Source of the DNA: Beroe forskalii
Lineage: Eukaryota; Ctenophora; Nuda; Beroida; Beroidae
Direction: 5' to 3'
DNA length: 64,000 nt
NCBI GenBank assembly: GCA_011033025.1
Contig: WFMF01000218.1
Location: 186,001 to 250,000 of the forward strand
How positions within the stretch are numbered: the stretch's first letter is position 1; each line of letters opens with the position of its first letter. The position numbers and the translations under genes were made by a program. The notes below the pieces were generated by a model. That model did not search any database. It was not told the DNA's origin and was given only the letters and a program-made list of their open reading frames with translations. Below, one piece after another: positions 543-32,646 of the stretch.

Positions 543-2420
543 ATGGCCCATACCCCCGAGGAGCAACAGTTCCTGCTTGCCAGACAGCGGATCTGTGATG
601 GGGAGCTACCTTTCCTCAAGACTACCTTCGAGGGGGACGGGTGGTGTAAGGTGTTTGATAACTCCGAGACGTACCTGCTCATGGCCTGCTACTACAGGTG
701 AGAGGAGAGGTGGTTGGTTAATAACTTTGTAAGGGTGGCAATAGTCTGTTGATATCATAGGTTGTGATTGGGATAAGGGCGTAATTGTAAAGTATTAATT
801 TGAAACACTGTGGATAATGATTATTTTTTTGCTTTTTTAAACTTAATTTGAAAGTTTGAATTGTACTAAAATCATAATAATATTTCAGACAAAGATCAGT
901 AATCGAGTACCTGGCGTATCAAGCAACTAGAAACATAAACAAGGTGTGGCACGATTTAACGTACAATGCATGTTCCTTGACTTTCTGTTCTTCACCCCGA
1001 ATGTCAGTTTCTTTCCTCAAGTTAAATTAGCCCCAATAAACCAGTTTTCCCCCCAATTACATCCCAGTCCCCAATGATTAACCAATCCCCCCTTTCCGAA
1101 GCCAGAAGTACAGGCGTGGCTGAAGGTGGTGTCCCCAAACGATAACAACCCCCTTCACAACTATATCTGCTCGTCCTCCATTGCTTATCGTCGGAAACCT
1201 CGACACACCGGCCTTCCTATCCTCACATCCGTTATAAAGTTACTCGTATCTCTAGGTTGGATCGGAGGAAGTTTTGTTATCACTAATTCAATACTCTTTT
1301 GTGTTTTTATACCAACCTACGTTGGTTGTATTCTACGTGATAACTCTGTATTTTAAAGGACACCACTTTTGCATCTAAAGTTTGCGATGCATTCCTCAAG
1401 ATTTGATGCTTACCTTCCTATCACAGTATCACCTTTCTCAGTATTTGATGCTTATCTTCTTATAACCGTTCTCAGGATTTGACATTAACGCTGCCAACTC
1501 CTACGGAGAAACGCCCCTCTACCTCGCTGTAAACAGTAACGACTTGTTAGCAGTAGAGACCCTCCTAACCCTGGGTGGAGACATCAATACTCGTTGCTGT
1601 GTACTGCAGGAAACAGTGCTACACCTCGCATGTACCCTGGAGGTTTGTTCAGTAACCCACGGGGGGGGGGGGGGGCGGGTGGACCGAAATCTGCGTTTAC
1701 AATAGCATAAATTTAACATAAATTACAGTAACAATTATCATATTTGTATCAATGCAATATGACGAATCTAGGTACTTATAGAAATATTAATAATAAATTA
1801 AATCATTTCTTTATTTACAGGACCACGGTATGATGGAAGCCTTCCTTGCCGCCCCTGAAGTAGACGTTAACGCCACTAACATGCACGGCTGGTCCCCCCT
1901 CCACCTGGCTGCACAGAAAGGAGACACGTATAAAGTAGGGCGGCTGCTGGAGGCCGGGGCGCGAGTGGAGATGGAGTCAGTGCGGGGCGACACCCCCATC
2001 TTCTTCAGCATGCATAATAACGCCCCTGAAAACACCTCCTTCACCCTGCTCTTCAACCACATCCGAGAGAGGTTTGGAGAGGAGGAAGCTATTGCACAAT
2101 ACAGACATACGAACAGCAAGGGGGAGTCCCTGCTGGAATGTGCGGTAAAACACGAGAACTTTGCTGCTATGAAGCTCCTGCTGGAGGAAGGACTGTTTGA
2201 TATCAACCACAGGGATGCCCAGGGTAAGACCCTGCTGCATCTGAGTGTAAGTCACGCTCCGAATGTGCAGATCCTCAGCTTTCTCCTGGATAACGGACTG
2301 AGGCCTAATGAGGTGGATGCGGTGGGGAATACAGCACTCATGTACTTCTTTAAGCAGAGCAGAGCGGCGCCAAGTAAGAGTGGGGGAGGAGCCAAGATGT
2401 CTCCCAATCTTAATGTGTGA
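543..2420 (+). CDS. Ankyrin-repeat protein, 4 exons
   Basis: Model: exons 543-697, 889-929, 1476-1642 and 1821-2420, about 320 residues. The ATG at 543 opens an uninterrupted frame. Ankyrin repeats are visible throughout: the exon 3 product has the D-x-N-A...G-x-T-P-L-x-L-A pattern, and exon 4 has two clean units (a G-W-S-P-L-H-L-A-A motif near residue 135 and a G-K-T-L-L-H-L-S motif near residue 250). Such arrays are protein-interaction scaffolds; no catalytic or membrane segment is seen, so the role is unknown. Introns 1 and 3 are GT-AG. The exon 2/3 join has no GT donor in the right phase; a GA donor at 930 gives A+GA and a continuous ankyrin unit. The last 15 residues are low-complexity (S/G/K). 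The family assignment is firm; the exon 2/3 boundary is inference. Confidence 0.8.
1663..1680. repeat. Poly-G tract in ankyrin intron 3
   Basis: A run of about 15 G interrupted once by C, 20 bp downstream of the exon 3 donor. Such runs are prone to sequencing-length error and can form G-quadruplexes. Confidence 0.8.
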
Positions 2421-3916
2421 AGGGGTGTGTGAATCTGTGACTAAGGGTTGTGAAGGATGTTTGGTCGATGCATGAAAGTATGAAGTTTTGATTATTTGCG
2501 AGCTTCAATATCCTATTCAAGTACAGTATATGGCATATGGGGTTTATCAATTCAGTATCAATTGTATTGTATGTGAGTGCTGTTCTATGCTAATTATGTT
2601 TTACGGTAGTTTGTATGGTCAGTAGAGTTTCGTCGAACGTTTAATTGCTGGAAGAAGTATTTTCATCCGAAGCTTTCTAAAATCATGATGTAATTATATC
2701 GTCGAATGTACAGTACAATACAGTAAGTTAGTACTAAGTACATAGCCATTTCGGAATGGCCGTGCTTCTATATGATTCAGATAAAACTCCAAGAAAAAGA
2801 GAAAAAGGTACAATATAATATATACAATAATGAGTAATGACTCGCCATTATTGATCTTATTGATACCTATTATGATTTTTGATATAATATATACAATTCA
2901 AACATTTACCTCCTGTTGCTATAGGGGAAGTTTGAATATAATGAACCTTTTGATTGCTACATTTTATTTGTATATCGTTATTACGCTGATTCCTTAGCAG
3001 TTACCTATAATCCTAAATGCAAGATTACATGACTCTCCGGTAACAGTCAATCCCCATTCTGAAAGACTGAAAAAGACTGAAAAACATTTCACTTTGATTT
3101 GGATTATTTTGTCATTCACATAAGCTAGTAGAACAAGCTGTGACTCGTATTCTATTGCATTGCATTGCAGCTGTGAAAGATTATGTTTTTATTTTCAATC
3201 TTGGAAGATTTTAATTGCTGCTTGAAACCTTACGCTGTTTCCGGGCGTAATTTCGTAAATTAGAGTACGTGATATTTTGATTGGTTCGAATTACGTGATA
3301 TATTACCGTTATGTAAGAATTAATATTTTGATTTAATTTGATTATATATACCACTTTTTAGTACAGTTACTTTTCGTTTATTATTAATATTGGTTGCTGA
3401 GAAAATCTGTATTCAAACTTAGCTCTTGTAAAAAGCATTGTATTAAATCCAACTTATGATTTCGACTAGAAAAGCTATTAAGCTTATTAAGATAAAAAAT
3501 TGTAAATATTATCAGTTCGTTCATTTTCAGTTTTAATTATGATCTGAGTATAAAAATGGTAAAATGCAATGATTTATGCCATGTTCATGTACTATTGTAC
3601 TTAATGTAGATACTGTAATTCTTTTCAATTGACAGCAATTTGATTTTCCAAATTATTATTTCATTCAACTCGGAGTCTTATTTGTTTCCAGCTCATGAAT
3701 ACCTCAGGAAATTTATAAAATTTGTTTGGAATGGCTGATTGTAACTGATTGTAAGTTTTTGAGATTGGGGACATTTAATCAAAAGCACTTACAGTAATAA
3801 TTTTTAATGGCCTGTTATAATGCTCATAAAGTTGTAATAACTGTTGTTTCTAACGCTAGTGATAAGAGCTACTTGTAGAATGTAGCTCAGCTGCGGTGAC
3901 TGCTCTCTTTGAGAAT
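2421..3916. other. Intergenic, AT-rich
   Basis: No exon or RNA gene recognised. It probably holds the 3' UTR of the ankyrin gene and the promoter of the glucosidase gene. An acceptor-like CAG at 3888-3890 just before the glucosidase frame leaves room for an upstream non-coding or short coding exon. Confidence 0.5.
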
Positions 3917-5941
3917 ATGTTTGCTGAAGAGGACTACATCCTCACTTCCTCCTCCCTTCCGTCTAACAGCAACAACAACCCCATCCTCTCCAACTCCTTC
4001 CTCGGATACCGCCTTCACGGTGATGCCTTCTTCATGAATGGGCTGTACAATGGCTACCGGAAGTCTTGTCACAGAGCCAGGATCCCGTGTTTCATCCCAT
4101 ATGTTGCTGGTCATGCTAATTTGTATACCCTGAACTCCAAACAGGCCACATATACCGTGGAGGGAGATAATTATGAACAAGTTTTTTATGCTCACAGCGT
4201 TTTAAATAGGGTTTTTATTACTGAAATAACTGTGAAATCGGGGACAGTTTCGTTGGAAAATAAGCTAGACCCTAAGCTGTGGGAGTCGGATTTGGATCAG
4301 ATTACATTTGGAAAGAAAACTTTGTACGACGGAGATCCTAGTTCGTTGGTACTTTTTTCCGCTTGGCAAATCAAAGAACCAGAGACTGAATCAGCCCCTA
4401 AATTGTCTGTTTATTGCATGTCAACTTCACAATCCAAAACACTTGGTGAAGGGAAACATGTTTTTATTTTAGCTTTTGGCTTTTCTGCAGATGAGACTAT
4501 GGAGTTCTATGATCTGGCCACGAAGTATAATGAAGATGGGGTGCTCTTTTCTACTCACAAGAAGTCATGGGAATATGTCTGGGAGACTGTAAACATCGAT
4601 GTGAACAACGCTGATTTTGCTAAAACTGTAAAATCCTCAATGTTCTTCCTCTTGAGTGCCTTTCCTCACTTTGCTCTTTCAATTCCAGATTTAGAAAACT
4701 ATCCATTTCAGTTCTTTGGCGTCAGTCCAGGTAGCCTCGGTAATGGTGGTAAGGATCAGGATTACTGGGGTCATGTCTTCTGGGATCAGGACCTCTGGAT
4801 GCTTCCAAGCATCATGGTCCTATTCCCTGCTTTGGTCAGACAATCTATACTGTACAGAATAGCCATGTTGCCAGGAGCTCGAGCTAAAGCCCGTTCAGCC
4901 GGCTACCTGGGTGCCATGTATCCTTGGGAATCTGGTCGCACTGGCGTGGATGTTTGCCCTGGCGACATATACGCCAAGTATCAACAACACATTACTGGGT
5001 GTGTAGTGTTTGCTATCAGACAATATGTCTATGCAACTGGATCATGGGATATTTTAACCAAAGATGGGGCATGGGATGTTGTGAAGGAAACAGCTGATTA
5101 TTGGGTATCCCGGGTAGAATGGGACGGAGATAACTTTGTGATAAACCATGTTATGGACCCAGATGAGTACCATTACAATGTTAACAACTCCTGCTTCACC
5201 AATGCTGCTGCTCGTTTGAATCTCCTATTTGCTATTGAAGCATCACAGAAGTTGGCAAAGACGCCAGATCCAAGGTGGGTGGCAGTTAGTCAGGAAGAGG
5301 GAGGTATCAAGATCCCATTTGACAGTGCACTCCGGTATCACCCTGAGTATGACGGGTATACCCCGGGGACGCTGATCAAACAGGCATCTGTTGTTCTGCT
5401 GGGATACCCTCTTGGAGTGAAGATGGATGATGATGTGAGGAGAAATGACATCGAGCAGTATGCAAAGTGTACTGATAAAGGACCAGGCATGACATACAGT
5501 ATGTACAGCATAGGGATGCTAGAGCTTGGGAAGGAAGATGAAGCTGAGAGGCTTTATAAAATTCAGTTCAAGCATCTCAGACCTCCGTTTAGGATTTGGA
5601 ATGAGTATCCGAATGCAGTTGGATGTACTAACTTCCTAACAGCTGTTGGAGGGTTTCTCCAGAGTTTGTTGTATGGTTATTTGGGACTGAGAGTACTTGC
5701 AGATTGTCTCATGATCAATCCGGTCGTGATTCCTGACTGTACTCATGCCAGGTATACAGGTGTTACGTTTTGCTCGGAGAGGTTTAATATCGATGTCTTC
5801 AAGGATAACTTTGTTATTTGTCGTACCACTGGGAATGCATTTGAGTTGTGGTTTATCTCTCAGGGGAATGAAAAATGGCCGTTAGTAACAAATAAAGTGT
5901 TAAACCTTCCCTCTGGATCTTATTCAATTAATCGTGGCTAG
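3917..5941 (+). CDS. PGGHG: PGGHG-like glucosylgalactosylhydroxylysine glucosidase (GH65)
   Basis: Single uninterrupted frame, 674 residues from the ATG at 3917 (vertebrate PGGHG is about 737). This GH65-family enzyme removes glucose from the Glc-Gal-hydroxylysine units of collagen. The N-terminal domain carries the family's 'NGLYNG' motif. The catalytic (alpha/alpha)6 barrel has the conserved G-H-x-F-W-D-Q-D-L-W block with Asp290, the M-x-P-D-E-Y-H block with Glu417 (general acid position) and the W-N-E block with Glu563, matching the three carboxylates of the human enzyme. No signal peptide is visible. The frame continues 5' of 3917 as far as a GTG at 3896, with an acceptor-like CAG at 3888-3890, so an extra 5' exon is possible, but residue 1 at 3917 aligns well with family N-termini. 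Lack of introns over 2 kb is unusual among its neighbours and could reflect retroposition. Confidence 0.9.
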   Translation: MFAEEDYILTSSSLPSNSNNNPILSNSFLGYRLHGDAFFMNGLYNGYRKSCHRARIPCFIPYVAGHANLYTLNSKQATYTVEGDNYEQVFYAHSVLNRVFITEITVKSGTVSLENKLDPKLWESDLDQITFGKKTLYDGDPSSLVLFSAWQIKEPETESAPKLSVYCMSTSQSKTLGEGKHVFILAFGFSADETMEFYDLATKYNEDGVLFSTHKKSWEYVWETVNIDVNNADFAKTVKSSMFFLLSAFPHFALSIPDLENYPFQFFGVSPGSLGNGGKDQDYWGHVFWDQDLWMLPSIMVLFPALVRQSILYRIAMLPGARAKARSAGYLGAMYPWESGRTGVDVCPGDIYAKYQQHITGCVVFAIRQYVYATGSWDILTKDGAWDVVKETADYWVSRVEWDGDNFVINHVMDPDEYHYNVNNSCFTNAAARLNLLFAIEASQKLAKTPDPRWVAVSQEEGGIKIPFDSALRYHPEYDGYTPGTLIKQASVVLLGYPLGVKMDDDVRRNDIEQYAKCTDKGPGMTYSMYSIGMLELGKEDEAERLYKIQFKHLRPPFRIWNEYPNAVGCTNFLTAVGGFLQSLLYGYLGLRVLADCLMINPVVIPDCTHARYTGVTFCSERFNIDVFKDNFVICRTTGNAFELWFISQGNEKWPLVTNKVLNLPSGSYSINRG

Positions 5942-5983
5942 TTATTACAACATTGCGCCCACCACATTGTTAGCTATGTTCTA

Positions 5984-7479
5984 GGCCCCACAAGCTCTAG
6001 GTCGAAATTTCAAATTATGTCACAAAATTACCGTATACATGTACTGAGTCGATCTAGCGTAAAAGAACAGTACATAAATAATCCAATTAGCGACAGGGCG
6101 TAATCTAATACACGCGCGATTGGAGAGGGCCAGCATGTACCGGCAAGAATAACAAACGTATCTTACATATCTACTGTGTTTAGCTGTTCGTTTCTCTTGA
6201 TTTGTTCCATTTTATACATTCAATACAAGCAACCGTGGATTGAATATTCATTGCTTTTGCAATGTTTTTGAAGTCAATCTCATTGTCTTAGTCAAGTATA
6301 ATTATGTCATAATAAGTGTAATAAATACTTAAATAGGGTCATAAATGAGAATTTATAACAGTATCATTCAATATCCCGATTTGTTGAGTTCTAGAGTTCT
6401 AGAGTTCTAGATTAGACGTCTGAAGTTACTCACCATAATTTGGTATTCGAATTCTAAATTTACCTATTTGTTGATTCAATACTAATAGACTTAACATGGT
6501 TTTGAACTTAAAACTTAAATTTAATCGTCATAAACCACATAAATTTAGCCAAGTATCAAGTACTGCATTTATTGGTTTGTCTGCGATCACTGCCCACATG
6601 GATGCTGAATCATCCTCTTCTCCGGAGCCTCCGAAGAAGAAGCAAAAGTCTGGTGGTTCGTTTTTTTCTTATGCATCATGCTCAAACGGATTCACAAACT
6701 GTCTCAAAAGCATCATCTCGCGAATGTGACAAATGTTTCGACAGTAAAGTTCAGGAAGCTGTATGTTGTAGGAAGTGTGATGAACTCTCTGACCTTATAT
6801 CTGAGCTATACAATTGCGTAACAGAAACAAATATTTTTGAAAGTTTGGTCTCGCAAGGACTAGAGTGCACCCGTTTCATACACGGTTCATCAATCAAGGA
6901 TTATAAAGGGATGAGTATCTTTCTAAGCCCTAAGCCCTTTAATAACGGCCTAAAACGTCATTTACTTTATCGTAACTTCGTGATCATGGCCAACAAAGGA
7001 CATCCATTAGGCAAAAATAATCGAACTGTAATCCCAAGCTGTGTTGTTGGCAAGATCAGAGAAAAATACCCGCAAGAAGATGGTTCCTATGAGGGTTATC
7101 ATGATGTACGGATGATAGAATAACTACATGAGGGATTATGTGTCCTAATTACTATAATGGATGTTTCAGGCATGTTATATTCATAGAAACATATTGGTAA
7201 TTTGAACTAATTAGTTCCATCACCTGTCCAAACATTCTATATTGCACTAATTACATAACAAGTTCACATAAAAATAAACGATTATCCATTGTACTAATGT
7301 ATAACACGTATCACACATTACACTATAGCGCAACATGCTGGCCCTCTCGGATTACAAGCAACTACGCGCCCTAATATCTCGTAATCCAATTAACTCTAGA
7401 GGGTGGGACAAAGCGCATTCTCTACATCAAGCTTATATCTATCCATTAAGATAAAGTTGTTTCTAGAGCTTGTGGGCCC
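5984..7479. mobile_element. Putative TIR DNA element carrying a P2X7-ballast ORF
   Basis: The outer ends are inverted copies: GGCCCCACAAGCTCTAG at 5984-6000 against the reverse complement of CTAGAGCTTGTGGGCCC at 7463-7479. A second inverted block, GAGAGGGCCAGCATGT, lies at 6123-6138 and, inverted, at 7333-7348. Spacing inside the two arms is similar (about 120 bp between blocks), so these are diverged TIRs of about 150 bp. No clear target-site duplication is seen; TTTAAA follows the right end. The only sizeable ORF inside is the P2X7-ballast protein. No transposase was recognised, so this could be a non-autonomous element, a captured domain, or an inverted repeat flanking a host gene. Confidence 0.5.
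6598..7123 (+). CDS. P2X7 C-terminal (ballast) domain protein, frame broken
   Basis: The C-terminal part (frame from 6671 to the stop at 7121-7123, about 150 residues) matches the zinc-binding cysteine domain found in the P2X7 receptor tail and in stand-alone invertebrate proteins. It has a C-x2-C pair, a V-C-C-R-x-C-D block, C-x-T-R-F, Y-R-N-F-V, a V-I-P-S-C-V-V-x-x-I-R-E block and a final Y-x-G-Y. No P2X channel part is present. An in-frame ATG at 6598 in the other frame encodes an acidic/serine start and a basic P-P-K-K-K-Q-K stretch that looks like a nuclear signal. The two frames meet at a seven-T run (6661-6667), so one base of length change would join them. Alternatively translation starts at the ATG at 6671. 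The gene sits between inverted repeats. Its function is not known. Confidence 0.6.
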
Positions 7480-8018
7480 TTTAAAGATTGACTTTCTATT
7501 TGTATGAAATTTCAATTTTATGGGAAAAATTTTGATAATAATTTCAATATTTTAATTCGATTCAGATTTTTAAAAATTTTTCTGAAATTTGAATGCAGTA
7601 TATTTTCTAGATAATGATTTTACTAGATGTACAATGTTTTACTAGATGTATAACATTATAACGCTGATTGCAGGTTTTTATTACAGGGTTTTAAAGTATT
7701 TCATATTTTATGATTTTATCTTTTTTATATTGACAGATTTGTGGTTCTATACTTAAACTTTTTAAGTTTTATACTTATAAACACTTTCGGCCGTTTAATT
7801 TCTGCCATACAATCTAAATTGACTCTTTGCCCTAATTGCTTAATTGCATCCATGGTTCTGTTCTCAGGACTATGCATACTGCCATACTGTTTATTTCTGC
7901 TATATTATCACCTCAAGTTTCGCTTCAACTAATTTTCCAAATCATTATTAATAATCACTACCTTATAAAGTTTTAAATTTATTTTGGCTATCTCGATTGA
8001 CATTCTCTTTCCACCCAG
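7480..8018. other. Intergenic or upstream intron of POLG2-like gene
   Basis: AT-rich, with short ORFs of no recognised family. The CAG at 8016-8018 preceded by a pyrimidine stretch is a plausible acceptor, so a 5' exon encoding a targeting peptide could lie here or in this gap. I could not identify it. Confidence 0.4.
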
Positions 8019-8022
8019 TAGT

Positions 8023-9024: not shown

Positions 9025-9580
9025 TCTTTTTTAATTTCATGATACATCCTTTTCATGGTGTTTCGTTTAAAATGTGATCCTTAGATTTTATTTGAAATAT
9101 TTATTATATTGGTCTGTAATGTTAAAATGTATGTTAAAACACAGTGACCCGTGTTACAACTAAGCATACATCAAAACTAATGCTCCAGATATTTTGTATT
9201 TCGATTAGTATAATTTCTATATTTTAAGATTTTATTACATTGAAAAGCGATATGAATAGAATTTTAGATTTCCTTCAATTTTCTGTGTTTTAAATGCTTT
9301 AATAAATTGATGGTAAATGATGATGTTTACCTCATAAATGTTTTTTACTCGATAATTTCAAATCTATATTTTCTAAAAATCAAATATTTTCAGAAAATTT
9401 GTACGATGATTTATATGGATCATGGTTTTTCATTCAAAGCCAATCTATTGATCTCAAAATTACCTACTGCCGTGGAAGTATTCAAACCTATATTTATTTA
9501 TTTATACTCAATTCTCTTAGAAATCATTCGTTTATTGAAATTATTGACTTCGAAAGTTATTTATTTATTTATAAGTTTGA
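9025..9580. other. Intergenic, very AT-rich
   Basis: About three-quarters A+T, with ATTT/TTTA runs immediately before the zinc-finger start codon. The overlapping short frames at 9307-9603 and 9399-9584 look like chance low-complexity reading frames. Confidence 0.5.
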
Positions 9581-13726: not shown

Positions 13727-16700
13727 ATGGATTCTTTGGGGGACATTGAAACATACAGAGTTCAGTTAGAACAGGTGAGTTGACGTATAGATCATTATAA
13801 TTATATATCGATTTGCAGTTCGCTATCGATCGTTTATTTTCATGAACTATCGAGACTGATTGAGTCAGTGATACATTTATATGCGAATCACTTTTTGCGC
13901 CCAATTGCACTGTACCTGAATGAAATCTCGGCAGCTCAGCCTTTACAAGTTTATATCGTAAATAAAATGACAGAAAATTGAATCTGGTCACGTACATATG
14001 CAGCCAAGGGAACTAAGCGGCAAGAATCGATTAACAACTGCCACTGCCACATGTTTAGTGCCTTTAAATAATTTAAAAACATGTCCCCATTTGCTTCCTG
14101 TAGTTTTATACTTTTATAGGGTAGACAAAAATCAAATTATCGTGATTTAAGTAATTTAAGGTACTAAGGTAGCATCCGGTATAACTGCATTTTGACATTA
14201 TATAATATCGGGGACTTGAAGAACTTTGTGATTAATTGGGACCATGTAATGATTTGACGTATTAAAAGTAGCTGTATTTAGCCGATGGTTTTAGCTCTAA
14301 TTATTTGCCATATTCTAGCTCTAATTATTTGCCATATTTTGTTAGGTCGAGGCTGCTTTGGTTGGGGAGCCTGACAATGAAGAACTGGTTAAACTGAAAG
14401 CAGATTTACTTGTGAGTTACTTTGTTGATTTTGCTGCTAATTGACTGAATTTGAAACTTCATAAACAAGCGTTTGTTTGTTGTTTATTTACAGTATTTGG
14501 ATTTGATTTCCATATTGCCAAACCGATCGTTACAATTGAAATATTAGCTAATTTTGCAGCGAGATATCTATTATTGATCTTATTAAGAGCTCACACCATG
14601 TCATTGATCTATCAGTATGATAAGCGAGGGGCTATGACTTGCGATGTATAAATGAGGTATACATTTCGCAGATTCAGCATGTGCCATGTATTATACCTTC
14701 TGTGGCAAATTTGGCAAAATTTCTGTACTTTCGCCGCGCGCGCGATGGTCACAAAATTGTGCAGAGTTGAAAAAGCATTTGAAAAACGCGCGTTTACGTT
14801 GATTGGCGCGTTAACTGGTTAATGGCCACATCACCACATACACTCAGAATGTAAGATTTGTGTATAGTATACGCCGTACACGAACAATAGGCGGAGTAGA
14901 CTAACGTCATTATCAGGGCATAGAATGGTGAATTGATGCCGTTAAACCGCATATTTTGGGCGTGACTTTTGTATTTTACAGGACATAATAGCCCTGACTG
15001 AAGATCTGATGGGATTGTCCGGCAGTAAGAAGGCTAACAGTTCAGAAAAACCCAAAGAAGAGGACAATGTTACCCAAAGCACATCGGCAAGTCGTGATTT
15101 TCAGAAAGTTGCGCGTGCTTCTTGCAATTAAGTGCTTCGTCCTTGATAATGAGTAGAACGAATCGTTCAAAATACGGAAATACAAATTTACCAGAGTTAT
15201 GAAGTTTTAATTCGTTGACATCTCAATTATCTTCCTGTAGGCAAGTAAAGGCTTCACCTCATTGTATGATGATGAAGACGATGTCGATGTAGCCCCTAAC
15301 CACACTGACACCACCCCATCAGAAGACAGTGAAACTGTCGACAAGGTATGGAATGAGGGGCAAAGTCCAGCGGTCCATTCGGGAGTAGTGGGTTGCAAAA
15401 ATGAATAGCTGACGCAATAAAACGTCATAGAGTCGTTATGAAAATCCTATTTTTGCTGTGATTGCGGTATTTTTCCGCGAATCGATCGCCTCTTCATTTC
15501 TCATATTTTCCTCTCCGAGTCGTCAACCACCCCTGTCGGCGGCATCATTCGACGTTCAGACGCGCCAAAGGTTGACATAATCGACGAGAAGGAGCGAATC
15601 TACCGGGTAATAAAATGCTGCGACCTTTTTTGTTTCATTTTAAAGGAATTCTGGAAAGTTGAAATCAATTTATCCTCCTTCATATCAGTCGTCATTCGAT
15701 AGTTCTCTTATTTCACTCTTCACACCGTACCCTACTGGATTTCGAAGAAGTACTTATCGATTAATCTTTCCTAGCAACAACTGCAAGAATTGAAGATGTT
15801 GACAGTGGAATGGTTGCCTGGTGAGAAGTGTCAAGCTCTCAATCCGGATACAAATCAGTATGTATATAACAGGCGACCGCTACATGATAGCTTCCAATAT
15901 AGGATAGAACTTTTGAAAATTATAGGACTTTGAATGCAATGTATTAATGTAGTGTCCGCGTTCTTTTGATTAAACAGAAGTTTGATGGAATATTCATTGT
16001 CTTTTAGCTTCAAATCGTGAAAATGCTAGAAGGACATCCGCATACTTCCCAGGTTTAACGACGCAGAGGTGCTGTGTAAAGGGGATGGGTACCTCCAGAT
16101 TAAGTTCCTTGATACATCAGTCATATCTAACGTCATGTTATCAGGTAGTTTGGCAACCGCCACAGTTTATCGAAACTGCCTCGTTTGTGTTGATGTACGT
16201 TTAATGATTATCATTTTTCATCTTGTTATGGCTGTTTAAACGCCTGATCTAAAAGTTGAAATACGAGTCAACATTTGCTTCAAATTAACTTAACGAAAAC
16301 AGAATTTTTGCTGACTGACTACATGCTCTCAGTTATCAGACGTGAGGAAACAGAAGAAGAGGCGTTGGGGTGAAGTTACAACTGCTCCTACACCAGTCGA
16401 GTTAGTTTTAGAAGTTATGAAAATTATAGGACCACCATTGGGTTTTGTTATACTATGAAAATAACGTCCCAGTATGTAATATGTTTTGCTTCTTGTCAAT
16501 AGCAGAACGTGACTTTCACTTGGTACTATTTTAAAGTTTAAACCTTCAGATCTCTATTGTTAATTTTCAGAGTGAAGAAAGCCGTGCACGAAAAGGAGAA
16601 GAAAAAGAAAAAGAAGATGAGTAAAAAGCAGAGGCAAAATGATATGGAACAGGTTTCTGCATTAAGAGTCTTTTACTCATTGTTTTTTGTCAAGAGCTGG

Positions 16701-17983: not shown

Positions 17984-19091
17984 ATGGCGTGTTCAGCAGT
18001 CTCCAAGCTATGTATGGTTTTTGTCACAGTGCCAACTAAAGAAGTCGCCAAGACAATTGCGAGTGGTGAGGTATACTTTCATATTCGTTTCATTCTTAAC
18101 ATATTATATAGTTATATTGTACACCTTCTAATTCATACTTTTATGCTTATACTTTTCATTCTGTACATATTCTAGTTCATGAAACCCCTCCGTTTCCCTT
18201 GTCACCTGCTGATGGTACACCTACATCGCAGATGGCAGGGAGACCTTACAACTGTAGGGTAACCGCTGATGATTCACAGTTTAGTCTCTTCCGCCTCTTA
18301 TGTCAATCTTTGAATTAGGAAATCGATATACAGTATTTTGTTCTGTTTGTAGTATACCCATACACCTCTATAGATAAGACATTGGATAAGAGATGGCTAA
18401 TATCATGTCTTGGTAATCAGATAACATTGTTGTGTTCCAGTTCTTAACTTCTCAACGTAAGTTTTTGCCTGACATGAATGTATGCCATCTTCTTTCCGCA
18501 GGTTTGCTACAGAACAAGTTAGCAGCGTGTATCAATGTGATACCTGGGGTAACGAGCTACTACGAGTGGGAAGGGAAGATGGAGGAGGACTCAGAGTTGA
18601 TCTGCTAATCTGGAACTTTACAATGTTTTGATTGGGACATTCTAATATCTACCAATTTGCGATTTTATCAACCAAATATTCATTCTAAGTGGGGCGTTTT
18701 TGGCCAAATTCTATAATCAGCTGCTTCATATATATTCAATAGAATCAATGTAGATATTAGATACTTCTGATTTCAGTTGATATTGATGATTAAGTCAACG
18801 AAGGAGAGGTTCAGTGAACTGAGTGAGTTCGTGAAGGCCAACCACCCCTACGATTGTGTTGAGGTAAGTTTGTTTCCACATTTCTACTTTACCCTCATAT
18901 CTTATCTTCTATCATGCTATACCCCGGTTCTAAAGACTTAAAAAGTAGTGGTCTGCTAATTATTGATTGAGATTCGCCCGGTTTGGTTTGGAATCTGTAA
19001 AAATGTCAACTGTTTTCAGGTGATATCTGCCGACATTGACCAAGGCAATCAGCCTTATTTGGACTGGGTAGAAAAGTCTTGTGCCAAATGA
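17984..19091 (+). CDS. CUTA: CutA divalent-cation-tolerance-like protein, 4 exons
   Basis: Exons 17984-18065, 18502-18596, 18777-18863 and 19020-19091; 111 residues, the usual CutA core length. CutA proteins form very stable trimers with a ferredoxin-like fold; the animal form has been linked to copper binding and acetylcholinesterase anchoring, though the biochemical role is unsettled. Visible motifs are F-V-T-V-P near the start, N-K-L-A-A-C-I-N-V-I-P (including the conserved Cys), Y-x-W-E-G-K, I-K-S-T, H-P-Y-D and Q-G-N-x-x-Y-L-x-W-V near the end. There is no signal peptide. Intron 2 (18597-18776) is odd: exon 2 ends GAG and the intron starts TTGATC, with AGTTGAT repeated at both ends, so no GT donor fits the frame. 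Introns 1 and 3 are GT-AG. Confidence 0.9.
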
Positions 19092-21918: not shown

Positions 21919-24900
21919 ATGCAGCGGTCTCTTCAAGCGTTGTTCAGAAGCAACTTTAACCGTACCACAACCACAAACCTACGAAGCAACATCAGACAAA
22001 GTCAGCAACTTCAACCATGGTGAGGGATGTAAAATGGCAGGAATTCTATGATCTACTTATCATGAACCCCATATTTTCCTCTTCAACTTTGGCCCGCTTT
22101 TTCTGTACCAGAAATAAACTTCTCTGTAATAAATTGATTGTCCTCTAACCCCACCCCTTAACCCTCTTTTCCGCGTTAACTTTAACCCCTTCCTCCCCTC
22201 AGCACGCGATCCCTCCACTCCACCCCTCCTGTTTCCATGCCCCGCTACAGCAGTGGAGGGAGCGGCAGTGGATCAGGTTCCAACGACAAGATCAGATTCT
22301 CGTGTCCCAACTGCAAGACCCCCATCATGTTCTACTGTCGGTTCTCGGGGACGCGGCGGCATATCCGGTGTCATAAGTGTGATTATCTGATAACGGTGGC
22401 TCATACTGCCACCATAGATCCTGCTAAGGACCAGCAACACCCGGAGTCTCTGTATAACAGGTGATGGAAATGATGTCACCTGTTTTTTTTTGCAGTTGCA
22501 TCCGTGACAGCCTAAGAATTGGTTGTCATAAATGACCACTCTTTTACTTCTCACCCAACTGTTATCATTTACCTAAAACCAACTCCTACTCTTTCCCCAA
22601 CTGCCACACCCCCTAACTCCCCCTCTTCCTACACCAGTGAACTACTAGAAGAACTAAGTCGTAGCGACCTGCGGAGCAGCATGGATGACAAGCGGCTGGA
22701 TCGCCTCTTCGCTCCACCCTACGAGGAACCCCACTCGGAGGAGGAGGGGAGGAACCGCTCCACCCACCACGCTCCACCACCCAGGGAGATATTCCAGTAC
22801 CTCGACAAGTTCGTGCAGGTACCTACATTCTTTGAGTGTGACCTCTGTAGTGTTGAACTGTTGACATTCACTAAAGAGGGAGGGGGGATGGTCAGTCCCC
22901 CAGCGTAGTAGATCTGTGCTTGAAGAGTTTAAGAGAGTGGCGTAAGACAGCTTTATTCTAGTTTGAGGGACTTATGAAAAGACAAAAACAAGTTATCATT
23001 TGTCATCATGAAACTCAATCACTAGTTAGGTTGAAATGAGGATTATAAATGTAGTTGTTTCACCTCGCTCAATGTGGCACGCGTGACCCTCTATTTGCTT
23101 TTTCCCTATTTTCTCCTTCAAACTTGAACAGCTTGGACTACGATCAGCGATATCTTAGTGTGCAATAGCTGTTTTGTATTTGTCTTGTTCCAGGGCCAGG
23201 ACAGAGCTAAGAGAGTGTTAGCCGTGAGTATCTACAACCATTACAAGAGGCTGCGGTCTATGGAGAATGAGGGAAAGGATGGAGCACCTAGACTGGATAA
23301 AAGCAATGTTCTGCTTATTGGTCCTACTGGGAGCGGTGAGTTTATGATGTCAAACTGTGTTCCAATCTGATTATAATATGGCATTTAGTGTTTATTAAAA
23401 GCTTAATATGCTGTAACTTTTACTGCTGTCATAACACACCTAAGCGTATTAAAACCTAATCGATCAGCTGTTTAAAGTTTTGTGGAGCATCTAATAAATG
23501 GTTCGCAGATTTCAGACACTAAAACCGTGCAATACAATCTGCATTATAATTCTAATTCAGAAACGTATCAACTTCTACTGAATTATAATAATTCTAATTC
23601 AGTAACTTATCAGTCTTCTACTCCAGGTAAAACCTATCTGTATCAGATGGCAGCTAAGTTACTCGATGTACCAATGGTGGTGTGTGATTGTACTTCCCTT
23701 ACTCAAGCTGGATATGTGGGTTAGCGTGAACTCCATTAATTCAACCAGCTCAATAACCACTCAATAACCTTTTCAGTGCATGTTTCGCCGCACCATGAAA
23801 CCCCTTTTCACCTGACTGCCTATCTCTTTTCCACTTCTTGAAGACCTTTAACCTCCACAGAAACCCTTCTTACCACTCCTAATTAACCACTCCTTGAAAT
23901 CCCATTCAGGAGAAGACGTTGAGAGCGTTGTTGTGAGGTTGTGGCAGGCTGCGTCACAAGATCTGGATCGAACCCAGCGGGGTATTATCGTACTTGACGA
24001 GTTATCAGTCTATTTTCATCCTTATCATTTATTTGCTGGCAGATTTGGCCGATTTATACGAAAGATTTTTAGCTAATACTTGACCCCAAAAGTGAAATGG
24101 ACGGATGGATCATGAAATAATGTGACCCCGTTATAATGGTTTTGCTAATTTGCTGTGGCTCGAATTTGTGATCGGATATCGTGTTATTCAGTTAGACAAG
24201 TTGGCGAGCAAGCGAAACAAGCACGGAGGCAAGGACATTGGGGGAGAGGGAGTTCAGCAGAGCCTGCTGAAGATCATTGAGGGTACTACTGTTACTGTCA
24301 CGGATAAAACGAAGAACAAGACTTATCAGGTACCTGGTACAATTTATTGCTTTATTTACTGTAAACAAATATTTTCAAACATATCTTGGATCAAGATTTG
24401 ATTCTGCTATTTTTGGGGTGAGTAAAGAAGTTTTCATCGTAATCTTTATCTATAATCTCAGATTGACACTCGGAATATCATGTTCCTGGCATCTGGAGCT
24501 TTCATTGGTCTGGATAATATCATCAAGAAGAGAACAGCAGCTAAGTCTCTCGGATTTGGTGCTCCTATAACACAAGAACAACAACAGAAGATAGAATCGA
24601 TTCAAGGTAGCTTTCTTCTTTCTCCCTCATTATCGATCAAAAAAACGTTGTAGAAATACCTCATATATGAGGTATTTCTACAACGTAGCAACAGTGTCAT
24701 TACTAGTTAACTAGTAAAAAATCCGGACAACCACCTTCACACCCTGATTTAAGGAATGGCTGACCTTTTTCAAATATTTTTCGTGATTTTTGTACATTCC
24801 AGCTGAAAAGGAGGATCCAGTGAACCTATCTGAATCTCGGAAGGAAAGGAGGAAGCTGATCAGACAAACAGAAGAGATGAACAGAGCTCGAGACAAACTC

Positions 24901-26009: not shown

Positions 26010-26726
26010 TATGACGTCATAGAGAAGGGGAGTGACGTCATAGGTGTTAAAAACTGTATTTTTGTCTGTCTGTATGTTTGTATGTTTGATGGGTAGTACT
26101 GTAATTTATTGGGCAAGGATGAACATTCCTGGATGATCTTTAGTTATCATTAGATCAAATGATCTTATTCTGTCAGTCACAGTGGTTTGTATTTTGGTGC
26201 AAGGATTTCTAGGGGTTTATAGTTTATCAAGATCCGTCAGATAGCTTTAAAATCGTGATATTATTTTCAAACTTTTACAATTACAATATTATTCACATAC
26301 TGTTATACTGAGGAGAGAGTTGCATTTTCTGGAATGTACCCAAGAATCAGAATCATTGAACAAAGATTGTTAATCTAACAGAAAGCAGAATCATTTAATA
26401 TTTCCTGTATTAACTGAAAATGTAATTTTACTCCATAAATTGAATTTCCAAAAACTCTTGGTTTAGTTACTGATGAGTGTCAAAACTTAATCATTAACCA
26501 TTCATATTTTCAATAACAGCCGCAGCGTCAAAACATTGTCGACTAGGTTTTCTTTCTATTCTCGAGTATTACTTTTGTTTTTTCTTTCGATTCTGAGGAT
26601 GATTTTAAGTCGCTATGCTCCTCAACCCTGAGTTGATACATGTTTTAAACACCTAAGTTTGACTACAATTTCCTTGAGCTTAGCTAATGAAATGGCTGTG
26701 CACGGCACAGTGTTCCAGATAATAAC
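26010..26726. other. Intergenic between CLPX and ABCG gene
   Basis: AT-rich, no exon supported. It presumably contains the CLPX 3' UTR and the promoter of the transporter gene. Confidence 0.45.
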
Positions 26727-29700
26727 ATGAAAGTGGAACCCACCAAAGACGCCCAGTGTCGCTATGAGGTAAGGCAGGTTTCATGTCATGCCTCCTTCCG
26801 ATTTGAGAATATCTCAATGTTGATTTTATTGAATCTTTTTTCAATTCAATCCATCAGCATCTTGTAAAAATGAATCTTTCCGATCCAAATCCATTTCCAT
26901 TTAAGGAACCTTTACCCATGAATCCAGTGTATGCCCTTCCCCTCTAAAACCTTCCCACTCCTCCCAGTTCTACGAGAAGCCCCCGCGTATCGATGACACA
27001 GACTGCCTGGCTCCCTACGTAGTGAAGCGGGCTGCCCTCTCAGTAGACAACCTCTCCTACTCCGTCCCAGTCTACCCCTCCTGGCGGGTGGGAAGAGCCT
27101 GTACTCAGCGCAGCATCCTCAGCAATGTCACGTTACATGTGCAGGATGGCACTCTCATGGCCATCATGGGAAACTCAGGTGGGTTGGAATGGGAAACTCA
27201 GGTGGGCACTCTCATGGGAAAAATTAAGTGGGATATCATGGCCATCATGGGGACCTCACGCGGGTGGTGGGAATGAACTATTTTGATTAACTGGGGTCCT
27301 ACTAGGTCCTGTGATTAAGAGAACATACGCGATTATAACCGTGTGACCTCCACAAAGATCATTAAATTATATATCCTCTCCCCTCAGGGTCAGGTAAGAC
27401 GAGTCTGTTGGACGTATTAGCTAACAGGGCTGTACCCGGTGCTAGAGTGACGGGGGAGATACTTCTAAACGGTACGGAGTGTACTCCCAGCATGATGAAA
27501 CACTCCTCCGGATACGTACTGCAGGTATGGTAGTTATTAAAGCAGGCATTAAAGCTGGTATAAAAGCAGTCATTTCCTCATTGTGTAGCGTTATCCTTAG
27601 GCTGCAGTTATTTCTAAATTTTAGCAGTAAGTACAGCTAAACTTGACATCAAGCTAACAACTTGGTCAGATCATCTTCCTTTTTGTTGACAAAAGTAAAT
27701 GTTGACAAATGAATTATAGCGAGTATCTTCCTTTTCGCGTACCACCATCCCTCGGGCTGCAGTGCCTGAGCTGTAGTATAGGTATAAATGCTTAGAGCAA
27801 GTTGTAAGTACAGCCGTACAGGTTTTCTTGAAATCAAGATTACCTCTCTTGTCGGATTGTCATTTGTCTTCCATTTTATTTGAAGAAGGTAAGAAGATAA
27901 TAGCTGATTTCATTACTATCGCAATGACCCGTTCTATGTTTTCCTCCGCAGCACGACCACATGCTACCTAACCTGACAGTTTGGGAGACCCTCATGTTTA
28001 TCTCTCACTTCACCCTGAATGAGGACGAGGCTTCCAAGGAGGAGAGGGTAAGTTATTAAAGAGAAGTTATGAGTTAAATTGTTGGCGTTGACCCTTCCAT
28101 TTATCATTTTGATAACTGGAGGAAGACTAAGTGTTTCTCTTTTCTCGATTCGCAAGTCACTAAAGCATTTAAGACTTTAACCACTCATATATTAACCCTC
28201 AACCATTCCCCAGGTGCAGACAGTGATAGACAGACTGGGTCTGTCCCACGTGGCTGACACCCGAGTAGGAGACGAGCACACGAGGGGACTGAGTGGGGGA
28301 GAGAGGAGGAGGGTCTCAATCGGGGTGCAACTCGTCAACGCGCCTAGTGAGTAATTATTTTAAATCCAAGAAAAACCACTGGATGTTTTCACATTTAAAC
28401 GGCTGATGGTGGTTATACCCATATGATCGCTCATGAAAAGTAGGTGGTTGGACACCATCAATCCATCCCAGCAATGGCGCCACTTCTGTTTCCCAGTTAT
28501 CACCTTATTTCTCTACTTCTTCTCCCTCAGGTGTGCTACTTCTTGACGAGCCGACTACAGGTCTAGACTCCTTTGCAGCACACAACCTGGTACTCCTTCT
28601 CAAGAGACTAGCTGGATACGGGGTCACCATTCTCATCACCATTCATCAGGTAAACTAAAGTCATCTTAGCACCTTATCAATACTAACAGGGCCCCTGAAA
28701 CCGTGACCGGGTGACACCTTGGGTCTCCACCCATCCTGATATGAAGCAATAACAATTGCTGTGCTTGGGGCTCATTCTAAAACAATACAATGTGCTATTT
28801 TGCAGCATGAAAGATTGCAGGATAAACCTTTTCCCTTCTTTAGCCGCGGTCTGACATATCCTATTCCATTTTCAAATTTCAGCCGTGCAATTTACTCCGA
28901 ACATGAAAATTCATCGTACAGGGTTTGCTCTGCAACTTCTGGTAGCAATATTGCGATATATACGCCTCTTGCTGTGATAAGCTCGTCATTTCAGCTATTA
29001 TCTCAGATCTGACCTAATGCCCTTTCAGCCGCGTTCCGACATGTTCCGTCTGTTTGACGGCATAACGATCCTCTCCTCGGGAGAGACGGTGTACAGCGGC
29101 CCTGCCCGGACCATGGTTACACACTTCGAGAACCTGGGATACCCCTGTCCTACCTACGTTAACCCTCTGGATCACTTCGTGGACTTGGGAACCGTGGACT
29201 ACAGGTGGGTTTCATCTCGTCATTTTGTGGATAATGTTGATGTTGGTGGCTTCAAAGTGGGCTAAATCTACACTTCATACTTCATACCATCTCAACCAGC
29301 AATTATATCCTTCTTTGATTTTAAAGCATGAAAAGTGAAAGAACCTCGCCAGTCACCATACATCCCTACAGGAGTGAGACTAGTCAGCTGCAGACCTCTG
29401 ACTCAGTAGAGTCCCTGAAGAAGAGTTTTGTGGAGAGTGCGGTGCACTCCGACACCCTCCAGCAGATCCAGTACTGGAAGGGAGGACCCCGGGAGAGGGT
29501 TGTGTTCTACAGGAAGAAAGCTAGCAAGAACGCCATCATGCGACGCATGATACAGAGAGTTGTTTGGAATTACCTACACATTGTAGTTTTTGTTGTTAGT
29601 TTGAAGATGCGATGATCATGATGCATGATTCATGTTTCAGTTTTCTAATCACGGAAACTATATATTTTCGATTCAGTTTAAAATCACAACTTCACAAATT

Positions 29701-32646
29701 CCTATCTACTTCCCATCAGTAGGTATAATCCTCCTCGCAGGAGATTACAACTAAACCTGAGTCGGGACAGTTCAGCGCTCACCATGCGGCTCAGTCAGCT
29801 CTTCCTCTTCGGTTTCTTCATGTTTGCCTTCTTCTTCCGGATTGGCTCCAACCAGAACTCCATGCAGGACAGAGTGGGCTTCCTCTACGAGATTAGTTGT
29901 GGCCCGATATTCATCGGAATGTTCATAAGGTCTTATTTATTTATCATCCCAACTTTCATGTGATCTTTTTTCCCATCAATGCGTGAAATGATCTTTAAAA
30001 GTTTAAAATTTCGGCTTTTGGTTGCTCCTTGATCAACATCCCAATCCCCCAGGAATGTTTAACGCCATCGCCCTCTTCCCCTCCCTGCGGGACATGCATT
30101 ACCGGGAAACCAGGGATGGTTTCTACAACAGTTGGATGTTCCTCTGTACCTACATAGCTCATGTGGTGCCCTTTGCTATGCTTGCCAGCATGATATTCGC
30201 CTCCTTCACTTATTGGTGAGAAGTGCTTAATGTTTTCATGGATGTTTGAGATGAACGATCGTTGATGAAACTCAAATTGTATATTTTCGCATGGTCCGGT
30301 TATAGTAGATTTACGATCTGAATTTCAAACCGATTCATTGAAGTGGGCTCTCTTGAAAAGTTAGACTTTCCAGGCTTTATTTCATTCCCCTCAGGGCGAT
30401 TGGTTTAAACCCCCAAGTGGTTCGCTTCGTGTTCTTCTACTTCAACTCCTTCCTGCTTCACGTTGCTGGGGAACTCATTGGCATTGGAATGCTGGGTCTG
30501 ATCGGGGACCCCACCTTGGCTAACAGTGTCTGCGCCCTGACACTCTCCATTAGCTGCCTGCTCTCTTCAGGGCTCGTCAGGTAGGAATCTTTCCTTTTTC
30601 TTTATGTGAATTGTGCTTTGCAGGTATCGAGCCGTAGATTTTTGGTGTGAATTGCGTTTTGCAATGAAGAAACTGCAAAAAAATGCAATTTCTCATTTTC
30701 TTAAAGTAGCTCTACAGTATTTTAATGAAAAAATCCCCTCTTGACGTCTTTTACCCCTTCGTCCCCCTCCAGCCCTCAGGCCTCACTCTATGATCTCCCT
30801 CCCAGGAGTGTTGAGTCACTGCCCACCATTCTCAAACCCCTCATCCCCTCCTAACCACTCAGGAGTATAGTGTCGCTACCAACCATTCTCCACCCCTCAT
30901 CCAATCACTCACCTTATCCATCTCATCTCCACCCCTCCCCCTCCTTCTCTCACCCACTTCCATTCTCAGGAGTGTAGAGTCACTACCCACCATTCTCCAC
31001 GGCCTTTCCTACCTGATGATCCACAAGTACGCTAGTGAGCTGTACGTAGTGAACGAGTATAACGGACTAAAGCTCGACTGCCCGGACCAAGGTTCGGGCT
31101 CAGGTTAGATCAGCAGCGTCAGAGTGCCCCCAAATCCCTTATTCTATTCTTCTATTGCGCTAAATTCCTGATCCCGTGGTGTTAAATCCCTGATCCCATT
31201 TTGCCAAATAAAACATACTAGTGTACCACCCTCTTTATTAAAACTTTCAGTTACTCCAAATCTTGCTCTTTAACTCTTTAAGCCATATTTATAACCAATC
31301 TCAATGCCTATTACCAACAAAAAGCCTCTTCAAGCCAGCTACAACTTTCCGTTTTCATGAATTCTACCGCAAATAATTCTTTGTTCGTGGTACAATTACC
31401 AATGATCTCAAAGCTTCGTGAGTGATAGCATGGCTATTGGCTAACCTTGCTATTTGCTATGGTGTTTTCCTCCGATTCTATCTCTACTGGCCCCAACAAC
31501 ACGCAAAAATAAAATAAATTGGTGCAAGGCTGTTTGTTGACGTCATAAGTTAAACCTTGTCACAAAATGAAAACATGCACCAGATTACCAATTTAATCAT
31601 GTGTCATACTTTGTGTCTTTAGATGTGGGAGATGAAGTTACGCCCTACGGTATGTTACGTATTTCACAGCAATCAGTATTATCGACAGCATATTAGCTTC
31701 AACCCACTGGTCCATTGACATTGCCCAATCAGCGAATGAGTTGACAATTAAAGCGCTTGCTGATTGGTCGAGGTCATGACGATCTTGGGATTCGACAGAG
31801 GAGCTAGTACACTGCCGATGATATGCCACATTGTGCTGGCCTTGTTTTCATGAAATTCATACCTCAAATCAAACCTAATCCAATTTGTGATTATGTGTGT
31901 GCACCTATGACCTGCAATAATTTTGACAATGAGATTTAAGAAGGAATGTCCAAATACAATGTACATTGTACAATGTATAATGTACAGTTGTCTGTGCAAC
32001 TAGAACCCCTCCCCATGCTTTGCTGTTCTGCTGATCGCCTGCTGATTTAATGATGAATAAACTGATTTTAATCGAATATTTAATATGACTTTTTCAATTG
32101 ATGAATGTTTTGTTTCAAGCCTGATTTGATATTCATGAATGTTAGATGCACGATAATGCCAAATTATCTATTCCAACAAAAACTTATATTAATTCCTTGA
32201 TTTCTTTTCATCTTGGAATTGGATATCACTCACTTTCGACTGATTCGTGGGTATTCAGGTGAGATGTGTATCTTCCCCAAAGGAGACGTGTACCTACAAC
32301 AGTACTACCCGAACGCTATTGAGAACTTCGACAGGTAGACGAATCATCTTTATCTGATGTTTATTATCTTTATCTGATGTTTTTACTTTTTGCTCCTGCT
32401 TGGAATTGAAGAACCTTCAGTTATTGCGTCTCTTGGCTTTACGCTCTTTGAATCAATAGATTTGACTAATATTGACGTTTGCTCCCCGAACTCTAGACGT
32501 ATAACCATAACTGACAGTACACTTGCTCCTTTGTGAATAATTCATTCCATGTTCCCAGGAACTGTGCGGTGATGTGGTTCTACACAGCTGGTCTCTTTCT
32601 CCTGGTCATTGGTATCTTCCAGTTCCGGACTAAGACACTGCATTAG
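26727..32646 (+). CDS. ABCG5: ABCG5/ABCG8-like half-transporter, about 15 exons
   Basis: Exons: 26727-26768, 26968-27178, 27388-27524, 27952-28047, 28214-28346, 28531-28649, 29029-29204, 29327-29554, 29741-29916, 30053-30215, 30395-30580, 30970-31103, 31623-31649 (27-nt microexon), 32259-32334 and 32559-32646; about 663 residues (human ABCG5 651). ABCG5/8 export sterols. The NBD comes first: Walker A G-N-S-G-S-G-K-T, signature [12 protein letters not shown], Walker [12 protein letters not shown] and H-loop I-T-I-H-Q-P-R. The NBD reads ABCG8-like ([13 protein letters not shown]). The six-TM part reads ABCG5-like (Q-D-R-V-G-x-L-Y, G-M-x-N-A-x-x-L-F-P, V-V-N-E-x-x-G-L). Introns 8 and 9 have no GT donor in frame; GA donors at 29555 and 29917 fit exactly. 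The other introns, including both flanking the microexon, are GT-AG. No ABCG8 partner is adjacent. Confidence 0.88.
30780..30900 (+). repeat. Two decayed copies of the ABCG exon 12 5' end in intron 11
   Basis: The real exon 12 start at 30970 (preceded by CTCAG) reads GAGTGTAGAGTCACTACCC-ACCATTCTC. Copies with the same acceptor context lie at about 30803-30836 and 30861-30893, each followed by an ACCCCTCATCC motif. They look like a local tandem duplication of the acceptor and exon edge and are potential decoy acceptors. Confidence 0.8.
31623..31649 (+). other. Candidate 27-nt microexon of the ABCG gene
   Basis: Flanked by TCTTTAG before 31623 and by donor GTATGT at 31650. It is phase 1 on both sides and adds nine residues (V-G-D-E-V-T-P-Y core) in the last extracellular loop, so skipping it also keeps the frame. 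Supported by sequence only; it could be an alternative or spurious exon. Confidence 0.55.

Follow-up and report, generated by a model that had tools for sequence, protein, structure and literature searches.

Introduction

A GT at the start of the intron is among the most rigid rules of animal genomes. The published work on which our comparisons draw records percent-level exceptions among animals in one copepod and two larvaceans. Here, we analyzed introns that lack a GT donor in the ctenophore Beroe forskalii, in a window of 64,000 nucleotides (nt) (positions 186,001-250,000 of contig WFMF01000218.1; the assembly comprises 216,145,372 bases in 1,134 contigs) and at other loci of the same genome. 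An earlier note on this window had listed five introns in four genes (an ankyrin gene, CUTA, CLPX, and an ABCG5-like gene) as having no GT donor in the required phase, and had proposed relaxed 5' splice sites. A ctenophore would add to the exceptions a lineage that some authors regard as the sister group of all other animals. The origin of new introns is, moreover, a long-standing open question.

The closest described systems differ in what replaces GT. In the copepod Eurytemora affinis, non-GT donors are GA and GG only, AG is obligate before the exon-intron border, A almost always occupies position +3, and such introns make up 10-12% of the total; they are called recently acquired and are said to be missed by ordinary gene models (PMC5714493). 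Beroe resembles Eurytemora in having non-GT 5' sites within an otherwise GT-AG animal genome, but its donors are GA, TT, CT, and AT and are tied to direct repeats, and the obligate AG and the A at +3 fail in some of its GA cases. Oikopleura and Eurytemora are the animals that stand out for GA-AG introns in the consulted part of an animal survey (PMC7072748), and new introns of Oikopleura dioica are described as often non-canonical, mostly GA-AG (cited in PMC4202315). Oikopleura belongs to another phylum, and the donors in Beroe are more mixed.

Repeats at intron borders have precedents as well. In Daphnia pulex, neointrons have 4-12 bp repeats that match the adjacent exon, and nearly all of them use canonical splice sites (PMC4202315). 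As in Daphnia, the terminal bases of the adjacent exon are repeated at the opposite intron end in Beroe (eight of eight introns, two of them hand-placed), whereas the repeat in Beroe leaves no GT. In Fritillaria borealis, whose U1 5' end is unchanged, a U2-type spliceosome handles introns of great variety: under 10% conform to GT/AG, the 3' ends vary as well, and U12 is lost (PMC13326754). In Beroe, by contrast, non-GT introns are a minority, acceptors are AG, and a U12 gene is present. Amoebophrya has highly varied splice sites and 3-5 nt direct repeats overlapping the intron borders, and its introners form families with 8-20 nt inverted repeats that join the ends (PMC7789003). Among the introns tested here, no families were seen, and pairing of the intron ends stayed within the GT-AG range in seven of the eight non-GT introns, CCT3 i1 having the lowest score of all. 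Direct repeats near splice sites were found to be general in a study of 213 introns (PMC11782384). We found no report of non-GT introns in ctenophores in the literature portions consulted, including those on Hormiphora (PMC8527503) and Mnemiopsis (2025; PMC11797021).

Non-GT introns begin with a copy of the next exon's first bases

Junctions were scored with a custom spliced protein-to-DNA aligner that gave equal weight to every donor. References were Protein Data Bank homologues for the window genes (1xk8 and 1osc for CUTA; human ABCG5 for the ABCG5-like gene) and mammalian subunits for the chaperonin (CCT) genes. Beyond the window, we sampled CCT genes, ATPases, and parts of dynein heavy chains. 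Border repeats were analyzed in 132 introns, 124 of them GT-AG and eight non-GT; the 80 dynein introns in this set were admitted only if GT-AG and thus serve as a yardstick for repeats, not for frequency. Four of the eight non-GT introns are robust: CUTA intron 2 (i2), ABCG i9, CCT6 i1, and CCT3 i1.

In all eight non-GT introns, the opening bases of the intron duplicate those of the next exon. These right-hand repeats are 2, 3, 4, 5, 6, 6, 7, and 16 nt long (sum 49), compared with an average of 1.24 nt for the 124 GT-AG introns. When donors and acceptors were re-paired in 20,000 trials, the mean sum was 4.5 and the maximum 17, and the observed value was never reached. The result held after removal of the two hand-placed introns (sum 43) and for the four robust introns by themselves (sum 34), neither sum being reached in 100,000 re-pairings. 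Counted over both sides of the border, the direct repeat is longest in CCT3 i1 (19 nt), measures 11 nt in each of the two CCT6 introns, and spans 4-19 nt in all but the doubtful ankyrin case. Total repeats of at least 11 nt also occur in four of the 124 GT-AG introns, where 0.04 would be expected, which is consistent with one mode of intron gain for both classes. Repeat-flanked introns are thus found in both classes, and the absence of GT follows from the identity of the duplicated exon bases.

Within the window, an intron at 15087-15240 is GC-AG (acatcg/GCAAGT...CTGTAG/gcaagt; lowercase, exon), and its GCAAGT recurs at the start of the next exon. The gene holding it, read by eye, is putatively SMNDC1-like.

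The intron starts are GA in four cases (two of them with junctions not fixed), TT in two, CT in one, and AT in one; among the four robust introns, GA occurs in two. GA is not the rule. The donor is set by the start of the downstream exon, whose bases the intron start follows because of the direct repeat.

We consider it reasonably probable (about 0.6, judged from genomic sequence) that these introns were gained by insertion with target duplication and that their splicing relies on a normal 3' site together with a relaxed 5' site. DNA would have been inserted into an exon, through repair of a staggered double-strand break or by a mobile element, and between a few and about 20 target bases would have been duplicated. 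The duplicated exon bases would have become the start of the intron, making the donor the exon's own reading (GA, TT, CT, or AT). Where the target contained AG, its second copy would supply the acceptor AG and its first copy the exon end and the non-GT start. The U2-type spliceosome would then recognise the 3' end by its ordinary branch point, pyrimidine tract, and CAG, and would tolerate the non-GT 5' site, with help from an AG at the exon end in those introns that have one. That AG and reading-frame quality control are candidates for fixing the 5' cut. We infer that removal occurs at the RNA level by the spliceosome, that the repeats are marks of insertion, and that the 5' site is chosen in this manner. 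A non-GT start tied to a duplicated target would be a simple route to new introns without waiting for a GT.

Placement of junctions in the window

Coordinates and border sequences are given in Table 1. The window tally comprised 20 introns, drawn from CUTA, CLPX, and the ABCG5-like gene plus ankyrin i2; three of the nine CLPX introns, located in a variable linker, were excluded. In CUTA, CLPX, and the ABCG5-like gene, 15 introns were placed as GT-AG. One of these, ABCG 28048-28213, was set to GT-AG where the run with flat donor weights favoured another donor (AG) by 1.9 bits. Two introns were placed by hand: ankyrin i2, and ABCG i8, which replaced two spurious ABCG calls.

Table 1. Non-GT introns, their direct repeats, and proposed exon joins. 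Positions are those of the window; exon bases at borders are in lowercase, and a slash marks a splice border.
Feature	Positions	Strand	Description
CUTA intron 2	18597..18776	+	180 nt, TT-AG, gag/TTGATC...TTTCAG/ttg; robust non-GT
CUTA intron 2 direct repeat AGTTGAT, copy 1	18595..18601	+	exon end and intron start
CUTA intron 2 direct repeat AGTTGAT, copy 2	18775..18781	+	acceptor AG and next exon
ABCG5-like intron 9	29917..30052	+	136 nt, GA-AG, tcg/GAATGT...CCCCAG/gaatg; robust non-GT
ABCG intron 9 direct repeat GGAATGTT, copy 1	29916..29923	+	
ABCG intron 9 direct repeat GGAATGTT, copy 2	30052..30059	+	
ABCG intron 9 proposed exon join			..TCATCG^GAATGTTT..
ABCG5-like intron 8	29555..29740	+	no usable GT-AG; GA-AG hand-placed, GC-AG possible; junction not fixed
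CLPX intron 6	24002..24191	+	190 nt, TT-AG gapless join, gag/TT...CAG/tta
CLPX intron 6 direct repeat AGTTA, copy 1	24000..24004	+	
CLPX intron 6 direct repeat AGTTA, copy 2	24190..24194	+	
Ankyrin-gene intron 2	930..1475	+	GA-AG according to the earlier note; doubtful
CCT6 intron 1			cag/GATGACC...CACAG/gatgac; robust non-GT
CCT6 proposed exon join			..GCACAG^GATGACAT..
CCT6 intron 3			gag/ATCATG...TTGAG/atcatg
CCT3 intron 1			cag/CTTGGGGAC...CTCAG/cttgggga; robust non-GT

For CUTA i2, the join EEDSE/LILMIK is gapless against 1xk8 and 1osc and scores 58.6 bits, and the best GT-AG placement scores 36.4, a loss of 22 bits. The join at ABCG i9 is gapless against human ABCG5 (45.4 bits); its best GT-AG placement deletes 7 residues and scores 34.7 bits, a loss of 11. 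No microexon solution was found for either intron in the range searched. At CLPX i6, the precise join scores 51.7 bits. A GT that lies in frame 6 nt further downstream (gag tta tca/GTCTAT) yields 44.9 bits; this alternative GT is weak and would add Leu-Ser directly after the Walker B motif. ABCG i8 lies in a weakly conserved region where several placements score alike: the best reaches 14.1 bits, GC-AG is second at 13.6, GA-AG is outside the six best, and the best GT-AG scores only 2.8. In the ankyrin gene, a GT lies 14 nt downstream of the proposed donor of i2 and one frame off (aag/GTGTGG, 7.7 bits; canonical mean 7.6). This intron would become canonical after a one-base assembly slip, and its non-GT status is doubtful.

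The claim that none of the five introns has a GT donor in phase thus stands for CUTA i2 and ABCG i9 and, as far as GT is concerned, for ABCG i8; it is not strictly correct for CLPX i6, with its weak in-frame GT and two added residues, and is doubtful for ankyrin i2. The note had also held that GA-AG gives the right phase in the ankyrin gene and in ABCG i8 and i9, which the gapless join bears out for i9; at i8 the GA is not demonstrated, and the ankyrin case is doubtful. Its remark that all five introns have GA at or within three bases of the exon end proved uninformative, GA being common; in CUTA and CLPX the exon end is followed by T. The broader proposal of relaxed 5' splice sites is supported, and CCT3 and CCT6, outside the window, support it more strongly than some of the five introns first named.

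Non-GT introns in chaperonin genes

Among 31 introns called in CCT genes, 26 were usable; two at the C-terminus of CCT6 and three in CCT8 (276-887, 2552-2659, and 2686-2746) were dropped. Ties at CCT7 i1, i3, and i4 were settled as GT-AG, and CCT1 was read by eye only. The usable introns were GT-AG in 23 cases and non-GT in three: CCT6 i1, CCT6 i3, and CCT3 i1. CCT6 i1 and CCT3 i1 give gapless joins against their homologues without an acceptable GT-AG alternative, and for CCT3 i1 there is no single GT-AG solution at all in the searched range. CCT6 i3 is probably a further non-GT intron. Gene models that insist on GT-AG would break basic genes such as CCT3 and CCT6.

CCT3 is present twice on one contig (C558), as copies some 36 kb from each other that run in opposite directions. 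Over 459 codons, their exons show 29 synonymous and no nonsynonymous differences, with no gaps and no stops. Six other introns diverge by 10-30% between the copies, with gaps, and keep GT and AG in both. In i1, the copies differ at four of 144 positions with five gap columns, and neither has a GT. The low divergence of i1 may be regional, since the adjoining exons are also nearly identical. Both copies, whether duplicates or misplaced haplotypes, encode the same protein across i1, and precise removal is therefore required; purifying selection acts across one non-GT intron in two gene copies.

Within CCT6 i3 (locus L039, reverse complement ~1155-1246), a stretch of about 92 nt has 79-99% identity to at least about 40 other places in the genome. 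A repeated element thus sits in at least one non-GT intron, of which it fills only a part.

Several observations weigh against gain by insertion with relaxed 5' splicing, and most concern placement. At CCT6 i1, an in-frame GT that adds nine residues scores 78.2 bits versus 90.6. In-frame GT-AG alternatives at CLPX i6 and CCT6 i3 cost 7 and 11 bits, respectively, and alter the protein by two residues (+2 or -2). The junctions of ABCG i8 and ankyrin i2 are not fixed, and a run with a short reference favoured a different placement of CCT3 i1, likewise non-GT. Two acceptors are weak, that of CCT6 i3 lying at the 4th and that of CLPX i6 at the 3rd percentile of canonical acceptors. The inserts searched (CUTA i2, ABCG i8 and i9, and CCT3 i1) are single-copy or present in gene copies only, the sample is small and comes from few genes, and the inspected dynein junctions included no clear non-GT intron.

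The alternative placements would fit ordinary GT-AG splicing that homology had misplaced, with a GT a few codons off or a microexon, in proteins slightly unlike the human ones. A dynein junction (C277 19565), apparently GT-TG, may likewise be GT-AG with a 7-residue insertion. We regard this explanation as unlikely. It conflicts with CCT3 i1, for which the sole microexon solution is a contrived 7-nt exon, and with the bits lost at CUTA i2 and ABCG i9, and it leaves the copying of the next exon by the intron start unexplained.

Assembly errors, in which a base was lost or altered at a normal GT donor, do occur at some rate in this genome: six one- or two-base frameshifts were called in 20,553 dynein residues and one was seen by eye in CCT1. 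In several introns a GT would reappear if one base were added, and ankyrin i2 is a good candidate for an error of this kind. At about one slip per 10 kb, however, only ~0.04 would be expected in the two to three donor bases of 132 introns; moreover, the two CCT3 copies agree, and slips would not make 5-16 base copies of the next exon. Assembly errors are accordingly a highly improbable source of the non-GT introns as a group.

Splice signals and spliceosomal RNA genes

All eight non-GT introns end in AG at the chosen junction, AG having been part of the rule by which they were placed. Ranked against AGs inside GT-AG introns, six of the eight acceptors fall in the 94th percentile or higher. Donor scores range from 0.2 to -7.4 bits (canonical 5th percentile, 2.8), values that are low partly by construction, as the donor model was derived from GT-AG introns. 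The exon ends in AG in five introns (cag, gag, cag, gag, and gag), and the other three exon ends are cta, aca, and tcg. In length, the eight do not stand apart from GT-AG introns (medians 183, 190.5, and 192.5 nt).

Ten U1 genes were found among 41 scored of 3,781 candidates; eight start with ATACTTACCTG and two with ATACTAACCTG. U1 is normal or nearly so. The two ATACTAACCTG genes (L003 and L011) would match donors with T at +3, a base present in 29 of the 124 GT-AG introns. The genome also contains U6 and one U12 gene. U12-type introns have the donor motif ATATCC or GTATCC, which fits none of the eight non-GT introns.

The U1 genes bear on whether the non-GT introns constitute a strict GA-donor class that has its own dedicated recognition, on the model of Eurytemora or Oikopleura. 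GA-AG is reported to be frequent in two animals; half of the eight introns here are GA-AG at the AG-anchored junction (two of these not fixed), and two more GA-AG calls, both tentative, were made in dyneins (C194 14608 and C790 16541) in the first run. The U1 change from C to U at position 8 discussed for Eurytemora is, however, in none of the 10 U1 genes found among the 41 candidates scored, the other four donors are not GA, and the GA introns carry the direct repeat too. The Eurytemora-like system suggested by the earlier note is therefore unsupported, and we consider it very unlikely.

Excision between direct repeats by a non-spliceosomal route, at the RNA or DNA level, would recall the internal eliminated sequences of ciliates and the nonconventional introns of euglenids. 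The removed segments are indeed bounded by repeats of variable length, across which the junction is ambiguous, and CCT3 i1 has the lowest end-pairing score of all introns tested (duplex z-score -2.9; lowest GT-AG intron, -2.4). Yet the z-scores of the eight introns extend from -2.9 to 1.5, with the other seven within the GT-AG range and showing no end pairing above that level; most of the 3' ends carry acceptor signals of the ordinary kind, and the lengths are like those of GT-AG introns. Such excision thus appears quite unlikely. An origin as multicopy introners found no support among the introns searched, with CUTA i2 and ABCG i8 and i9 matching one place each and CCT3 i1 two (the gene copies).

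A variant of gain by insertion dispenses with the 5' signal. Almost any repeat-flanked insert ending in a usable AG could become an intron at once and be excised precisely from transcripts, without any 5' consensus: the 3' site would be recognised normally, and the 5' cut would be made at the matching point of the upstream repeat copy. We advance this version only as a doubtful one.

Frequency of non-GT introns

Outside the dyneins, 52 introns were resolved, of which 44 were GT-AG and eight non-GT. Non-GT introns made up five of 20 in the window (two robust), a fraction that is biased upward because the finding chose the window, three of 26 in the CCT genes (two robust), and none of six in the ATPases, which were read by hand and were all GT-AG. 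Most splicing here looks ordinary, and our guess for the genome-wide rate of non-GT introns is a few percent.

Dynein heavy chains were scored in two runs. The first (C194, C790, part of C277, and C414) gave 77 GT-AG and 10 non-GT junctions, with 26 having a weak flank and 41 untestable; the two GA-AG calls mentioned above were among the non-GT ones. The second run covered C194, C790, C277, and C248, C414 being excluded for poor alignment. Its 151 junctions included 82 well-supported GT-AG, 18 weak GT-AG, and 34 untestable; non-GT was first scored at 10 junctions classed as good and seven classed as weak. Twelve dynein junctions with good flanks were singled out as possibly non-GT. Four of them (C790 12891, C277 25065, C248 5023, and C248 9344) were GT-AG on reading the DNA, C277 8863 was GC-AG, C277 25207 was read as a spurious exon, and C790 24277 fell in a tandem-repeat stretch; C790 6035, 16345, and 16505 and C277 146 stood outside this inspection. 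C277 19565 can be read in two ways: as GT-TG, with an imperfect border repeat of 10 nt (CATCGCCGGT/CATCGCTGGT), or as GT-AG, with the seven extra residues. A run of the dyneins with a flat prior gave many non-GT calls, and the right-hand repeat reached at least 3 nt only at C194 19353 (3 nt) and C277 19557 (6 nt). Because the dyneins gave no clear case, the frequency of non-GT introns varies by gene.

Three further dynein heavy chains, C534, C1024, and C26, have open exons of 3010, 3715, and 1583 amino acids, and four others have 22-46 introns in the aligned part. This suggests that the long-exon dyneins are retrocopies or have undergone massive intron loss. No clear further non-GT case was found in these nearly intronless genes.

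Other observations

In the V-ATPase B gene (L046, from ~1060 to the end of the reverse-complemented locus), an exon end and the following intron start are tandemly repeated. The unit is about 65 nt and is present in several copies, so that near-identical donors stand in succession; this would represent intron growth through duplication of an exon-intron border.

One- or two-base frameshifts were observed in conserved exons of CCT1 (L044) and of dyneins (C26 11243, C194 23390, C790 22928, and C277 14819). The CCT1 site reads GGT TCC TGA T, which resembles the +1 shift site of antizyme; an assembly slip is likelier.

Ctenophore mitochondrial genomes are small, very derived, and poor in tRNA genes. 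COX1 had a single match in the assembly, on a contig of 13,339 bases; the gene is highly derived, and TGA is read as Trp. No tRNA was found by ARAGORN in 2,844 bases of this contig. These features fit a probable ctenophore. Diverged repeat arrays (e.g., tttggtccttgtgaacaattatagacaaag) occupy much of the window's second half, at ~33900-36000 and in open frames at 36600-37400 and 51000-55400.

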